This document shows positions 2,045 to 6,788 of a stretch of 6,788 nt of DNA, piece by piece (within the stretch, counting starts at the first letter, position 1; every line of letters starts with the position of its first letter). The position numbers were made by a program, and so were the translations under genes. Location: the NCBI GenBank assembly GCA_036562265.1, contig DATCKS010000345.1, positions 1 through 6,788 on the forward strand. Direction: 5' to 3'. The DNA is from DASVDK01 sp036562265 [NCBI: Thermodesulfobacteriota bacterium] (lineage in GTDB: Bacteria > DASVDK01). Under the pieces are notes generated by a model that was not told where the DNA came from, ran no database searches, and saw nothing but the letters and a program-made list of their open reading frames with translations.

Positions 2045-2743
2045 TCAGTGGCCGAAGGGGGGGCGGCCGTGGAAGTGGCCGTCGAGACGCACGCTGGCCG
2101 CGTCGAGCGACCGGCCCTGGACGCGCAGGGCCGCCTCGAGGCTGTGCACGCCCTGGGCGCGGAGGAGGGGGACGAGGCGCACGTAGATGCGGCCGGCGAT
2201 GACGGCGTCGCCTCGCGCGGTGTGCCGGCCGTCGCACGGCACGCCGAGCTGCGCCGCGAGCTCCTCGAGGGTGAGGCCGGCCCAGTGGGGCGACAGCGCC
2301 CGCGCGAGCCCGGCCACGTCGAGGGCCGGGACGGCGAGCGCCGGCAGGCGCGAGCGACGCGCGAGGCGGTTCAGGATCGAGAGGTCGAAGCCGAGCGCGA
2401 ACCCGACGAGCGGCGCGAAGGCGCCGCAGGCGGCCGAGAGGGCCGGCAGCACCGCCTCGAACGGCGGCGCGCCGGCCACGTGCCGGTCGTCGATGCCGTG
2501 GATCCGCGTGGCGGTGAGCGGGATGGCCCGACAGGGGCGGACGAGGCTCTCGTACCCCCGCTCGGGCCGGGGCTCGCCGTCCTCGAAGGGAATGGCGGCG
2601 ACGGAGACCGGCTCGTCGCGGCGGGGGTCGAGCCCCGTCGTCTCGATGTCGAGGGCGCAGAAGCGGCCGGCCGGGAGCGGCCCGGGTGGAGAGCCGCCGC
2701 CCCCCCCGAAGGGCCAGATCCGTGCGATCCAGGGCCGCATCAT
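2045..2743 (-). CDS. DEDDh (DnaQ-like) 3'-5' exonuclease domain protein
   Basis: A 232-residue protein with one RNase T/DnaQ-type exonuclease domain at about 28-195. All five catalytic positions of the DEDDh class are visible: D32 and E34 in LDIETTGLD, D120 in GFDLSIL, and H174 and D179 in HTARGDA. Enzymes of this class remove nucleotides from 3' ends of DNA or RNA with two metal ions, so this copy should be active. The N-terminal 27 residues are a Pro/Gly-rich lead (GGGGGSPPGP at 13-22). The start ATG (2743-2741) overlaps the stop TGA of the CBS/DUF294 gene in an ATGA, and no independent Shine-Dalgarno is visible, so translation is probably coupled. The stop lies 5 bases from the stop of the convergent molybdoenzyme gene. 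It is not the polymerase III epsilon subunit by context; the pairing with a DUF294 protein suggests a dedicated but unknown substrate. Confidence 0.92.
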   Translation of the reverse strand: MMRPWIARIWPFGGGGGSPPGPLPAGRFCALDIETTGLDPRRDEPVSVAAIPFEDGEPRPERGYESLVRPCRAIPLTATRIHGIDDRHVAGAPPFEAVLPALSAACGAFAPLVGFALGFDLSILNRLARRSRLPALAVPALDVAGLARALSPHWAGLTLEELAAQLGVPCDGRHTARGDAVIAGRIYVRLVPLLRAQGVHSLEAALRVQGRSLDAASVRLDGHFHGRPPFGH

Positions 2744-4254
2744 CCGAACAGCATATCAGTCAGGAAGCGGGTTCGGAGGTCGTTCTGCAGCGAGCGTACC
2801 GCGAGGAGCGCCTCCCTCAGGCCGGCCCGCTCGGCGCGGTTCAGGGCGCGCGGCTCGACGGCGCTCGTGGGTGGGCGCCCGGCGTCGAGGTCGGCGAGCT
2901 GTCGTCGAATCCTGAGCCGGGTGATCACCTCGTAGGCGGCCGTCAGCTCCTCCACCTTCTGCGGTGGGAACCGGCCGTCGCGGGCGGCGGCCGCCTCGAG
3001 ACGCTCGAGCGTGTTCGTCTGCCGGAGCCCGAGCTCCAGCGCGTGGACGCGCAGCGCGTTCACGAGGGGGAGCATCCCCTGGAGCTTCAGGTTGATCCGG
3101 CCCCGAGACGGCCCCCAGAGCGGCGTCACGAGTCGCCCGAAGAGGCCGATCGGCGGCGCCGTCGAGACGGCCGACCAGGCCATGAGGCGGAGGAAGGCCT
3201 TCCAGGACTCGACCTCCTCGCGGAGGTGGGCGAAGAGGCGGTCGGCCAGGTCGTGCGCCCCGAAGACCGGCCTGAAGTCGAACACGATGGAGGCCTCGAG
3301 CAGGTCCTCGGGCGACGACTGCCGAATCCAGCGCGAGAAGCGACGCTCCCAGACGTCCACCGGCTGGCGCCAGGTCCGGTTCGACGCCATCACGTCCGCC
3401 GGGCAGCGCGGCACGCCGCACCGGACGAGGCCCGAGACCGTCTCGGCGGCGAGCCGCTCGAAGTAGCGGTCGACCGCCCAGGCGGGCACGTCGGCGGGCG
3501 GTCGCTCGTGGACGAGCGCGTTGTCCTGGTCGGTCGCGAGCGTCTGCTCCCGGCGCCCCTCGCTGCCGAGGGCGAGCCAGCAGTAGCGGACGGGGGGATG
3601 GCCGAACCCGTCGGCCGCGAGCGCCTGTTCGGCGATGGCGAGGAGGCGCCGGACGAGCGCGTCGTGCAGTTCGGCCGTGATGCGCGCGATGTCGGCGGAC
3701 GGCACGCCGTCGTCGAGGAGGGCGCGGATCACGACCGTCACCTTCGGCGCGATCGCCGCGAGGTCGTCGACCCGCGTCTGGCGCTCGATGGCGCGCAGGA
3801 GCGGAACCGGATGCGCCTCGCCCGGCGTGAGGAAGTCGTGACTCGAAACCACGCCGACGAGCCGGCCCCGACCGTCGCCCGCCGGCTCGGCGTCTGCCGC
3901 CGGCGCCTCGAGGACGGGCAGGTGGCGGATGCCGCGGCGGAGCATCTCGAGGAGCGCCTCGACGGCCGGCGCCTCGGCCGAGACCACGTGGAGCGGCGCG
4001 CTCATGATGCGGCCGACCGGCTCGGAGGGGGGAAGCTCCGCGGCGACGACCTTGCCCCGCAGGTCGCGGTCGGTGACGATGCCGATCGGCGAGCCGTCGC
4101 CGTCGACGACCACGACGGCGCCGACCGCCTCGGCCTGCATGAGGCGCGCGGCCTCGGCGATGGTCGTGGTGGGGGAGCAGGTGACCGGCGCGTGACGGAT
4201 CAACTCCCGGACCGGGCGGCGGAGGGGGGCGGACCCCCGGTAGGCGAGCGGCAT
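2740..4254 (-). CDS. CBS-pair / DUF294 nucleotidyltransferase-like regulator
   Basis: From ATG 4254 this is a 504-residue soluble protein with three parts. Two CBS repeats lie at about 12-72 (VGAVVVVDGDGSPIGIVTDRD) and 77-142 (HLPVLE, GRLVGVVSSHDFL); CBS pairs commonly bind adenine nucleotides. A nucleotidyltransferase-fold DUF294 domain follows at about 165-335: LGSEGRREQTLATDQDNAL at 229-247 carries the GS plus DxD (D242, D244) signature, with a further acidic residue in FDFRPVFG (D326). A helical DUF294 C-terminal domain covers about 340-500. Larger relatives often add an N-terminal cyclic-nucleotide-binding domain, which is missing here. The family resembles GlnD-type uridylyltransferases in fold, but its reaction is unproven. 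A GTG at 4302 would add 16 Pro-rich residues but sits inside a strong hairpin, so ATG 4254 is preferred; no good Shine-Dalgarno precedes either. It follows the symporter and microprotein and is translationally coupled to the exonuclease. Confidence 0.92.
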   Translation of the reverse strand: MPLAYRGSAPLRRPVRELIRHAPVTCSPTTTIAEAARLMQAEAVGAVVVVDGDGSPIGIVTDRDLRGKVVAAELPPSEPVGRIMSAPLHVVSAEAPAVEALLEMLRRGIRHLPVLEAPAADAEPAGDGRGRLVGVVSSHDFLTPGEAHPVPLLRAIERQTRVDDLAAIAPKVTVVIRALLDDGVPSADIARITAELHDALVRRLLAIAEQALAADGFGHPPVRYCWLALGSEGRREQTLATDQDNALVHERPPADVPAWAVDRYFERLAAETVSGLVRCGVPRCPADVMASNRTWRQPVDVWERRFSRWIRQSSPEDLLEASIVFDFRPVFGAHDLADRLFAHLREEVESWKAFLRLMAWSAVSTAPPIGLFGRLVTPLWGPSRGRINLKLQGMLPLVNALRVHALELGLRQTNTLERLEAAAARDGRFPPQKVEELTAAYEVITRLRIRRQLADLDAGRPPTSAVEPRALNRAERAGLREALLAVRSLQNDLRTRFLTDMLFG

Positions 4255-4277
4255 CGGGTGCCCGTTCCGAGCGGAGA

Positions 4278-4309
4278 CGGGCGGGTGGGGCGCCGGCCCC
4301 ACCCGCCCG
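4278..4309 (-). terminator. Perfect 14-bp GC hairpin between microprotein and CBS/DUF294 gene
   Basis: The arms at 4278-4291 and 4296-4309 are exact reverse complements (CGGGCGGGTGGGGC and GCCCCACCCGCCCG) around a 4-base loop. On the transcribed strand it begins 12 bases after the microprotein stop. No T-run follows it, so it is not a textbook intrinsic terminator. It could be a partial terminator, a 3'-end stabiliser or a processing site that makes the upstream symporter/microprotein message more abundant than the downstream regulator message. It also covers the alternative GTG at 4302. The structure is certain at DNA level; the role is inferred. Confidence 0.5.
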
Positions 4310-4321
4310 GGCGTCTTCGGC

Positions 4322-4399
4322 CTAGCGGCCGAAGACGACGAGCATGAAGACGATGGTGAAGAGGATCGATCCGACCAGCCAGTAGTCTTCGCGTGCCAT
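4322..4399 (-). CDS. 25-residue single-helix membrane microprotein, likely symporter partner
   Basis: A short reading frame ATG 4399 to TAG 4322 encodes 25 residues. A polar start (MARED) is followed by an uninterrupted hydrophobic stretch at 6-23 (YWLVGSILFTIVFMLVVF) and ends G24-R25. This is one membrane-spanning helix with no other domain. Support for a real gene: GGAGGG at 4412-4407 lies 7 bases before the ATG, the best-spaced ribosome site in the window after that of the symporter. The frame sits 15 bases behind the symporter stop in the same direction, and a strong hairpin follows its stop. Sodium:solute symporters often have small membrane partners (YjcH with ActP, YhdT with PanF, DUF4212 proteins), though those are several times longer. 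I recall that very small 'symporter small accessory protein' families are annotated beside such carriers, but I cannot confirm a match. Likely role: assembly or stability of the carrier in the inner membrane. Confidence 0.75.
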   Translation of the reverse strand: MAREDYWLVGSILFTIVFMLVVFGR

Positions 4400-4406
4400 A
4401 CGCGAG

Positions 4407-4412
4407 CCCTCC
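4407..4412 (-). promoter_or_regulatory. Strong ribosome binding site of the 25-residue microprotein
   Basis: GGAGGG on the minus strand, 7 bases before ATG 4399 and inside the 15-base gap behind the symporter stop. Its quality and spacing are the main argument that the very short frame is translated rather than chance sequence. Confidence 0.75.
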
Positions 4413-4414
4413 GT

Positions 4415-6238
4415 CTACCGGTTCGCCCGGTCCGGCGAGGCGACGCCGAGCGCCGAGGCGGCCGCCGGCGCCACCTCGTGAACCACGTAGCGGGTATCGG
4501 TTTCGGCCCGCTCGATCTGCGCCCGGCCGAGGAACGAGAGGCCCGCCTTGAACGTGAGCGCCCACATCATCGCGATCCCGAGGAGCCACCAGGCGATCTG
4601 CCACGACCAGAGCGGCGGGAAGCCGAGGAACGAGAAGGCGTCGTTGCCGAGCACGGCTCCAGGTCCGATGGCGAAGAAGTACCACACCGGCACCACCACC
4701 CACATCGCCTTGCGCCACTTCTTCTGCTGCTCGGTCGGCCGATCGATGTCGGCGAGCCACTCGCGCACCTCCCGGCGCCTGGCGAGCTTCTCGGGCGCCT
4801 CCTGCCCGATCTTGCTCGCGAGGAGGCCGACGACGATCGCCACGCCGAGGCCCCAGCCGGCCGAGTGGATCGTGAGCGGATACTTCCAGCCCGGCACGAG
4901 GATGTCGGTCAGGAAGACGGCCGCCACGCCGGCGATCAGGCCGAGGACGGTCCCGAGCCCGGTCACCCGGAGGCCGTAGCAGACCCCGAGGAGCGGCAGG
5001 TACATCAGCGTCCCGAACGCCGTCGCGAGGCCGCCGAGCATGACGAGCGCCGCCTGCGAGTTGACGGCGATGGTGAAGGCGACGACGGTGATGAGCACCG
5101 CGAAGGCGCGCGACGTCCAGATCTGCTCGCCGTGACCCGCGCCGGGGCGGATGTAGCGGAAGTAGACGTCGCGGCAGAGGATCGTCGAGCCGGTGCCGAT
5201 GTAGGGCGACGCGGTCGACTGCATGGCGGCGAGCGCCCCGACGGTGACGAGCGCGAGCCAGAAGCCGGGCAGGTAGGCGTGCATCAGCTTCGGAACGAGG
5301 TCGCTGTCCCTCGTGATGCCGAGCGTGTCGGTCACGATCCGGCCGCCCATCCCCTGGATGGCCGTGAAGAAGAAGAGGGCGAAGCCGACCACGAACGTCG
5401 ACGCGAACGTCTGCTGCCAGGGGAAGGGCCTCGGGTTCTTGTTCGAGAAGGCCCACATCGTGAAGGCCGGCGACGCCTGGATCCCCATGAGGGAGAACAT
5501 GTAGGTGAGGATCATCGTGCCGGTCCAGATCGTCTCGCCGGCCGTGAACTCCATGACGGCCGGGATCTGGAGGTACCGCTCGGGGAGTTGCGCGATCTCC
5601 TGGCTCAGCGTGGACCAGCCGCCGACGGCGGCGAGCGTGAAGGCGCCGAGCGTGATGATGCCGGCGACGAGGAGGACGCACTGGAGGGCGTCGACCCAGG
5701 CGATGGCCCGGAGGCCCCCGGCGGCCACGTAGAAGACGACGATCGCCGCGAGCAGGATCGACCCGGTGACGGCGGGGATGCCGGTGACCCAGTGGAAGAG
5801 GGCGCCCGACGCCATGAGCTGCACGGCGGAGTAGAAGGAGCTGTAGAGGAAGGCCACGAGGACGACGAGCCAGCGCATCGCCTCGGTGCCGAAGTAGTAC
5901 GAGTACATGTCGCCCGGCGTGATGAAGCCGTAGCGCTTGCCGAGGAGCCACTGGCGCTTGGCGAAGAAGGCGCCGGTGATCGGGATCGTCAGGACGTAGA
6001 ACGAGGCGAACGCGTACGCGAGGCCGTCGCGCCAGATGAGCCCCGGATGCCCGATGAAGGTCCACCCGCTGAACGACGTCGCGGTCGCGGCGAGCAGGAA
6101 GATCCACATCGGGAGGGCGCGGCCGGCGATCATGTAGCCGCTGGCCGTCTTCGATCGGCGCGCCCCCTGGATGCCCCAGTAGATGCAGTAGGCCCAGTAG
6201 AGGATGACGGCCGTCCAGACCCAGGCTTCGTTGCTCAT
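4415..6238 (-). CDS. Sodium:solute symporter (SSS/SLC5 family)
   Basis: A 607-residue inner-membrane carrier of the sodium:solute symporter family, which couples solute uptake to sodium entry. About 13 hydrophobic helices are seen between residues 6 and 475, typical of the family core. Family marks include AGRALPMWIFLLAATATSFSGW (38-59) and AGGLRAIAWVDALQ (173-186). LAAMQSTASPYIGTGSTI (336-353) carries A338, S341 and T342 at the expected sodium-2 site of helix 8. After the core come a charged stretch (about 479-510, EKLARRREVREW and QQKKWRK), two more helices (about 511-527 and 545-565) and a 42-residue tail. Substrate is unknown; acetate or another short carboxylate would fit relatives, but this is inference. 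The start is ATG 6238, 5 bases after GGAGG; a GTG two codons earlier lies inside that Shine-Dalgarno. It is followed by the microprotein, CBS/DUF294 and exonuclease genes and is probably the first gene of that run. Confidence 0.95.
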   Translation of the reverse strand: MSNEAWVWTAVILYWAYCIYWGIQGARRSKTASGYMIAGRALPMWIFLLAATATSFSGWTFIGHPGLIWRDGLAYAFASFYVLTIPITGAFFAKRQWLLGKRYGFITPGDMYSYYFGTEAMRWLVVLVAFLYSSFYSAVQLMASGALFHWVTGIPAVTGSILLAAIVVFYVAAGGLRAIAWVDALQCVLLVAGIITLGAFTLAAVGGWSTLSQEIAQLPERYLQIPAVMEFTAGETIWTGTMILTYMFSLMGIQASPAFTMWAFSNKNPRPFPWQQTFASTFVVGFALFFFTAIQGMGGRIVTDTLGITRDSDLVPKLMHAYLPGFWLALVTVGALAAMQSTASPYIGTGSTILCRDVYFRYIRPGAGHGEQIWTSRAFAVLITVVAFTIAVNSQAALVMLGGLATAFGTLMYLPLLGVCYGLRVTGLGTVLGLIAGVAAVFLTDILVPGWKYPLTIHSAGWGLGVAIVVGLLASKIGQEAPEKLARRREVREWLADIDRPTEQQKKWRKAMWVVVPVWYFFAIGPGAVLGNDAFSFLGFPPLWSWQIAWWLLGIAMMWALTFKAGLSFLGRAQIERAETDTRYVVHEVAPAAASALGVASPDRANR

Positions 6239-6491: not shown

Positions 6492-6788
6492 CTAGCCGAC
6501 CTGTGCGGTGAGGAAGCGCTCGTCGAGGGCGCGCTGGAGCGAGGCGACGGTACGGAACGCCTCGGTGAGGGACGCCCGCTCGACGCGGTCGAGACGGCGC
6601 GGCGCGACCCGGTTGTCGGGCGGCCGGCCGGCGGCCACGGCGGCGAGCTGGTGGGCGAGGCGAACGCGCAGGATGACCCTGTAGGCCGCCTCGATGTCGG
6701 CCGCCTCGGCCGGGGTGATGGCGCCGCGCGCCGCCGCGCCGGCCAGTCGCTCGAGCGTGCCGGTTGCCGTGAGGCCCAGGGACAGCGC
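6492..6788 (-). CDS. C-terminal end of a second DUF294-type protein (5' part outside window)
   Basis: The visible 98 codons end at TAG 6494-6492 and run off the right edge. They correspond to the helical C-terminal domain of the CBS/DUF294 protein at 2740-4254. Shared blocks in the same order are LGL..T.TLERL near residues 3-15, AAY.VI.R.R near 34-43, QLA...AGRPP near 48-57, ERA.L.EA near 70-77, SLQ..L near 83-88 and RFLT at 91-94. By hand alignment about half of the residues are identical with a one-residue gap, so this is a true paralogue rather than a recent duplicate. Whether it too carries CBS repeats and an intact nucleotidyltransferase motif cannot be seen. It reads toward the symporter, 253 bases away, and could share a transcript with it. 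Confidence 0.85.
   Translation of the reverse strand, partial: ALSLGLTATGTLERLAGAAARGAITPAEAADIEAAYRVILRVRLAHQLAAVAAGRPPDNRVAPRRLDRVERASLTEAFRTVASLQRALDERFLTAQVG

Follow-up and report, generated by a model that had tools for sequence, protein, structure and literature searches.

A 25-residue single-helix microprotein gene tied to one clade of sodium:solute symporters

Carriers of the sodium:solute symporter family (SSF) make up a large superfamily and have mostly been studied as single chains. The window analysed here, the whole 6,788-nucleotide stretch of contig DATCKS010000345.1 (assembly GCA_036562265.1, a Thermodesulfobacteriota bacterium), raises the question of what a 25-codon reading frame is doing directly behind the gene for such a carrier: is it a gene at all, and if so, with which neighbor does its product work? 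A first-pass annotation, made from the letters of the sequence, had read the frame as a membrane microprotein that lacks annotation and is locked to the symporter, and had suggested that it stabilizes or gates the carrier. The elements it described (a 25-codon frame with GGAGGG at 7 bases, a hydrophobic helix, a 15-base gap behind the symporter stop, and a hairpin) are all present, and to these we add the strand, which is minus.

The microprotein gene and its clade

The frame (Table 1) encodes the 25 residues MAREDYWLVGSILFTIVFMLVVFGR, shares the reading frame of the symporter gene, and reaches a hydropathy of 2.85 over its best 15 residues. The hairpin, whose perfect inverted repeat of 14 bases encloses a 4-base loop, starts 12 bases past the stop, and the 73 bases of this region (4330–4258) have a folding energy of −50.8 kcal/mol (z −4.1). 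A scan for terminator-like sites with a T run found none in the window, and no Rfam family matches the window at gathering scores; the hairpin is likely a 3′ end or an mRNA-stabilizing stem.

The 25-codon frame is a real gene, conserved as a protein and tied to one SSF clade. When the 200 bases that follow the symporter stop codon were put through dinucleotide shuffles, none of 5,000 gave a hydrophobic frame of 20–50 residues starting at bases 15 to ~60, even though frames lacking a ribosome site were counted. Over both strands of the whole window two frames pass the hydropathy rule, and of these only that of the microprotein has a ribosome site. A hold-out profile built from 32 relatives, the window excluded, recovers the window frame at an E-value of 3.1e-8 among 625 translated stretches from five sources, the window giving no further match at E ≤ 5. 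A blind rule (ATG, a Shine-Dalgarno core, 22–34 residues, hydrophobic, start at most 100 bases behind a gene) is satisfied at 35 of the 37 loci with the microprotein and at none of the 51 readable symporter genes that lack the frame (locus L029 and 50 from outside the clade). Three of 527 other frames of at least 200 residues in 80 loci also satisfy it, and all three are the microprotein gene seen from an overlapping frame.

The distribution follows the symporter tree. A symporter search of genome contigs supplied 80 loci, the best 80 of 95 found; genome searches added 13 symporter rows, which with the window makes 94 rows, 88 of them with a readable 3′ end. The microprotein frame stands behind 37 of these 88 (window included). 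In a FastTree tree of 90 symporters, which carries long-branch warnings and from which four incomplete rows (L034, L078, L080, L115) were omitted, all 37 carriers of the frame fall in one 40-row branch with a local support of 99; the other three rows are L001, L017 (where the contig ends), and L029. Hence, where the 3′ end can be read, a one-helix frame of 25–30 codons follows 37 of 38 symporters in the clade and 0 of 50 outside it (behind L118–L120 just 174–180 bases are present). The branch consists mostly of Desulfobacterota-type genomes, with two Actinomycetota and L001 (Candidatus Rokuibacteriota), and the window and L092 are adjacent to L001. The gap from symporter to microprotein has a median of 32 bases (range −4 to 287), and Shine-Dalgarno cores are found in 37/37 rows. 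Most of the frame rows had been part of the profile that detected them; five rows outside it (L110–L114) scored E 5e-9 to 1e-16.

Selection was measured on 32 rows of 28 residues, five of the 37 being omitted as not 28 residues as read (the window, L027, L061, L092, and L114). The uncorrected ratio of nonsynonymous to synonymous differences (pN/pS) in the microprotein frame is 0.14 for the 15 pairs with 80%–98% DNA identity, and 0.26, 0.37, and 0.51 for further sets of 89, 145, and 247 pairs, the pairs not being independent. Shifted frames give 0.90–2.30, the 84 bases behind the microprotein stop 0.94–1.04, and 40 codons of the symporter tail 0.26–0.87. There is thus purifying selection on the microprotein frame in the relatives, and on that frame only, so the synonymous bias proposed as a check in the first-pass annotation is there in the relatives' frames. 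Four residues (E4, D5, G25, and G28) are invariant across 33 rows; the window peptide has E4 and D5, and its end is shorter.

The symporter as partner

Among 395 genomes of one phylum, seven match the microprotein profile, at eight places. Two of the places (L097, L098) lie inside 307-residue frames and were excluded from the count, leaving five real genomes with six frames, every one of them behind a clade symporter. A search for the symporter in equally many genomes of this phylum found 12: those five, G337 (its symporter cut short), and six with more distant symporter relatives and no microprotein frame. Desulfosarcina widdelii has two paralogous symporters, each with its own frame (L081/L018 and L088/L114). 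Two other genome searches gave less: in 200 genomes of the order of the Pseudonocardia genome in our set (L061), only that genome itself matched, and in another search nine of ten places were weak (E 0.03–0.09) and lay inside frames of 158–559 residues.

The gene on the other side of the microprotein is far from constant. The next frame of at least 90 residues is a DUF294/CBS protein in the window, L092, L110, L111, and L003, and acetyl-CoA-synthetase-like in L006 and L030 (by Pfam) and in L012, L032, and L094 (by eye). Elsewhere it is a response regulator (L008), a PAS-exonuclease (L016, L025), a peptidase (L015), ABC1 kinase-like (L007), PhzF-like (L061), or of no family (L020); Pfam was run on ten of these next-gene proteins, and some of the frames lie hundreds of bases downstream. 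In L004, L009, and L010 a DUF294 gene is found further on, on the opposite strand. The varying next gene, the constant symporter, and the frame on both paralogs together identify the symporter as the partner. The membrane microprotein locked to its symporter, as first described, therefore holds up, with 37 of 38 readable clade members, purifying selection, a constant neighbor, and no Pfam or NCBIfam family. That relatives in several bacterial phyla retain the microprotein in this position, behind this importer, means that it is probably a missing small part of the transporter.

The region behind the frame is also often structured: the 70 bases there have z ≤ −2 in 25 of 37 rows (mononucleotide shuffles), and a run of at least five T occurs in nine rows, in five of which (L016, L022, L026, L112, L113) visual inspection places it behind the stem. 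A further small frame, conserved and 75–79 residues long, lies behind the microprotein in L002, L018, L019, L023, and L031, 86–270 bases past the symporter stop. It has a zinc-ribbon-like start (CxCGH...CxxC) and one hydrophobic helix, and one example is weakly like DUF2116, below the Pfam cut-off.

A subunit, a regulator, or neither

We consider the microprotein to be, with fair probability, a dedicated single-helix auxiliary subunit of the symporter encoded just upstream, and we propose, from the analogy with MAP17–SGLT2 and MgtU–MgtB, that it helps the carrier to fold or to stay stable. The helix would insert in the membrane and pack on the outer face of the carrier, outside the transport path, with contacts that may run through the E4–D5 pair at its start and, in the 28-residue form, the glycines at its end. 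It could thus act as a fixed scaffold that aids folding, membrane retention, or escape from proteolysis, and translation a few bases downstream on a shared mRNA would supply both proteins in matched amounts. If so, the existence of a conserved bacterial family of 25–30-residue partners, one that has no Pfam or NCBIfam model, would imply that symporters of this kind may fail for want of a subunit when expressed alone; the family would also offer a minimal test case of how one helix stabilizes an SSF carrier. The substrate may be a short carboxylate, the basis being solely the synthetase neighbors at some loci.

We file the microprotein as a new family among a known kind, that of small single-helix transporter partners. 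Neither Pfam nor NCBIfam has a match to the window peptide. Across the 32 microprotein rows, NCBIfam gave stray matches below the cut-off to four families (at most three rows each, best E 0.0024) and Pfam to six families (one row each, all below the cut-off, best E 0.077), so a known family, with no match above the cut-off in any of the 32 rows, is rejected; families of the YjcH, YhdT, and DUF4212 type are absent from the matches of these rows up to E 1. The open-licence literature yielded no described small partner of this type for sodium solute symporters.

The closest parallel in kind is human, and here as with the bacterial proteins below we follow excerpts of the cited sources. MAP17 (PDZK1IP1), partner of human SGLT2 and SGLT1, is likewise one transmembrane helix beside an SSF carrier, and the SGLT2–MAP17 pair shows clearly that such a carrier can need a single-helix partner. 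The MAP17 helix contacts transmembrane helix 13 (TM13) of SGLT2; the authors, who argue that activity is not directly affected, describe MAP17 as belonging to a fixed scaffold that aids stability and localization (PMC10803289). In the window, the hydropathy, a helix at 616–637 in a fused symporter–microprotein model, and the location behind the symporter likewise give one transmembrane helix beside an SSF carrier, and the best fold matches of the symporter model are SiaT and SGLT–MAP17 structures, in the latter the carrier chain. MAP17 differs in its human origin and in having parts outside the membrane. The microprotein profile has no match among all Protein Data Bank (PDB) chains, SGLT–MAP17 entries included, at E up to 10, the profile being short and of little power; the likeness to MAP17 is therefore one of kind, not of descent.

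Among bacteria, the small membrane protein YjcH is encoded with the acetate symporter ActP and acetyl-CoA synthetase in the acs-yjcH-actP operon (PMC6498577, in part). Several of our loci similarly have, in this order, a symporter, a microprotein, and an acetyl-CoA-synthetase-like gene. YjcH, however, is encoded ahead of its symporter, and it is longer than the microproteins, whose 32 rows have no Pfam match above the cut-off. MgtU (28 residues) is described as shielding MgtB from FtsH (PMC10710835), and with MgtS, MgtR, and AcrZ it belongs to a set of membrane proteins of 28–49 residues that bind transporters. The microprotein shares what marks the MgtU/AcrZ class, being under 50 residues, with one helix, and genetically linked to a transporter (25–30 residues, 37 of 38 readable clade symporters), but the partners named in the excerpts are P-type ATPases, PitA, or AcrB, and no SSF carriers. 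The small membrane-peptide frame of CbrX in Pseudomonas adjoins cbrA, a histidine kinase with an SLC5 domain, and so likewise lies beside a gene with an SSF-like domain; it differs in having 58 residues and two helices and in lying upstream and overlapping, and its demonstrated effect is translational coupling (as excerpted from PMC8871633).

This same set of proteins suggests another role for the helix. The microprotein might be a regulator that binds the symporter in some conditions only, to inhibit it or to control its turnover, much as MgtS and MgtR act on their transporters, and its size and single helix do resemble those given for MgtS (31 residues), MgtU (28), and MgtR (30) in the excerpts. 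We regard this as unlikely, as a location directly behind the symporter, with the median gap given above, in 37 of 38 readable clade members favors a standing subunit over a separately made switch. Less likely still is an independent small membrane protein, a stress peptide or something like a type I toxin, that is merely cotranscribed with the symporter: short hydrophobic peptides can be toxic, and there is one orphan copy (L082), but the six real frames in 395 genomes are all behind clade symporters and both paralogous symporters of one genome have the frame. It is very improbable that the frame acts on the next gene as a translated leader or a coupling element, its peptide unimportant, on the precedent of cbrX, whose translation cbrA translation needs (PMC8871633, excerpt). 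A hairpin does lie between the microprotein gene and the next gene, but that gene differs among loci, the DUF294 gene is further on and on the other strand in L004, L009, and L010, and selection acts on the amino acids. Chance, for all that short frames are common in GC-rich DNA, is ruled out by the shuffles, the hold-out profile, and the purifying selection on homologous frames.

Several observations weigh against an auxiliary subunit, or against its presence throughout the clade. In the fused model (mean pLDDT, the predicted local distance difference test, of 84.7 over the chain) the symporter comes out well and the helix forms, but the block means of the helix are 45–58 and its placement is not confident, so that no interface is established and docking by fused folding was rejected. 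The role first suggested for the microprotein, that of a stabilizing or gating subunit, is plausible by analogy. A conserved face on one side of the helix is not significant (3,128 of 5,000 shuffles reach the observed value). The window and L092 share 8 of 22 residues, and their differences fall 12/5/5 over the three codon positions, with no third-position excess, so the codon test for the window itself is weak. A leave-out profile gives L092 at E 1.8 and does not list L061; the assignment of both rests on place, length, and helix. The Pseudonocardia symporter of L061 (3001–4859) is itself split over two frames near query residues 404–411, a frameshift or sequencing error.

The other points concern relatives lacking the frame, which had been named in advance as grounds for refutation and which are just two. 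L001 has the symporter most identical to that of the window (78%), yet the microprotein frame is missing, and so is the conserved C-terminal tail of the symporter, which aligns just to about residue 578 of 609. A frame with a lipoprotein-like start (L001 4740–5000) occupies the place of the tail and the microprotein gene and is followed by the DUF294 gene; a separate search of L001, whose frame has no stop before the contig end, gave no microprotein match. Tail and microprotein gene are absent together from L001, through either deletion or misassembly. In L029 there is no frame in the 642 bases behind the symporter; a copy lies on a different contig of its genome (L082), and the 480 bases that precede this copy hold no symporter. 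The two places are weakly alike over 37 bases (E 0.02), which may be a repeat. Palindrome-like repeats occur in L029 past base 2807, the expected site of the microprotein gene.

Other small frames and neighboring features

Symporters outside the clade have small frames of their own. Of the 51 readable loci that lack the microprotein gene, 26 have a different conserved frame behind the symporter, of 79 residues and two helices, which is found at 0 of the 37 loci with the gene (the 26 are L033, L041, L044, L048–L050, L052, L053, L055–L060, L063–L067, L069–L074, and L079). Seven of the 26 seeded the profile, and the match starts 82–243 bases past the symporter stop, in a sister clade. Two examples are without a Pfam match above the cut-off, and one scanned against NCBIfam had no match. 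This suggests that symporters of the wider branch use exchangeable small partners. A stronger form is possible, though we hold it only tentatively: SSF symporters of the branch would generally need a clade-specific small membrane subunit directly downstream, swapped wholesale, either a helix of 25–30 residues or a two-helix protein of 79 residues and never both. If true, few known obligate transporter subunits would be as small as the window protein. Neither small frame is found in 25 of the 51 readable loci without the microprotein gene, and the pattern is therefore not a rule. An extra helix fused to the sister symporters, replaced in the clade by the microprotein, is not seen in a 16-row alignment, where the length difference of the sister symporters consists of inserts between helices.

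In the rhizobial relatives L075, L076, and L077 (36% identity), a frame of 46–49 codons with one hydrophobic helix lies directly behind the symporter, and one of these shows a weak Pfam likeness to AcrZ (E 0.14, below the cut-off).

Table 1. Features on the minus strand of the window around the microprotein gene
Feature	Position	Strand	Evidence
SSF sodium:solute symporter, 607 residues from ATG 6238 (609 from GTG 6244); stop 4417–4415	4415..6238	−	Pfam SSF PF00474 E 2.9e-35; open reading frame; relatives; fold matches SiaT, SGLT, and CHT structures
Shine-Dalgarno GGAGGG (4412–4407)	4407..4412	−	Sequence; Shine-Dalgarno core at most 16 bases from start in 37/37 rows including the window
25-residue single-helix microprotein gene, stop included; ATG 4399–4397, stop TAG 4324–4322	4322..4399	−	Open reading frame, relatives, shuffles, blind rule, hold-out profile
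Perfect 14-base-stem hairpin (4309–4278)	4278..4309	−	Inverted repeat, folding; z ≤ −2 in 25/37 rows
CBS-DUF294 putative nucleotidyltransferase; listed GTG start inside hairpin, ATG 4254 possible	2740..4302	−	Pfam DUF294 E 3.6e-44, DUF294_C E 1.8e-42, CBS
DnaQ-type 3′–5′ exonuclease, 4-base overlap with stop of DUF294 gene	2045..2743	−	Pfam RNase_T E 2.1e-19; open reading frame

A second DUF294-type gene seems to end ahead of the symporter, on the minus strand at 6493–6788 of the window, with 54% identity to the DUF294 protein in Table 1 (E 1.6e-13).
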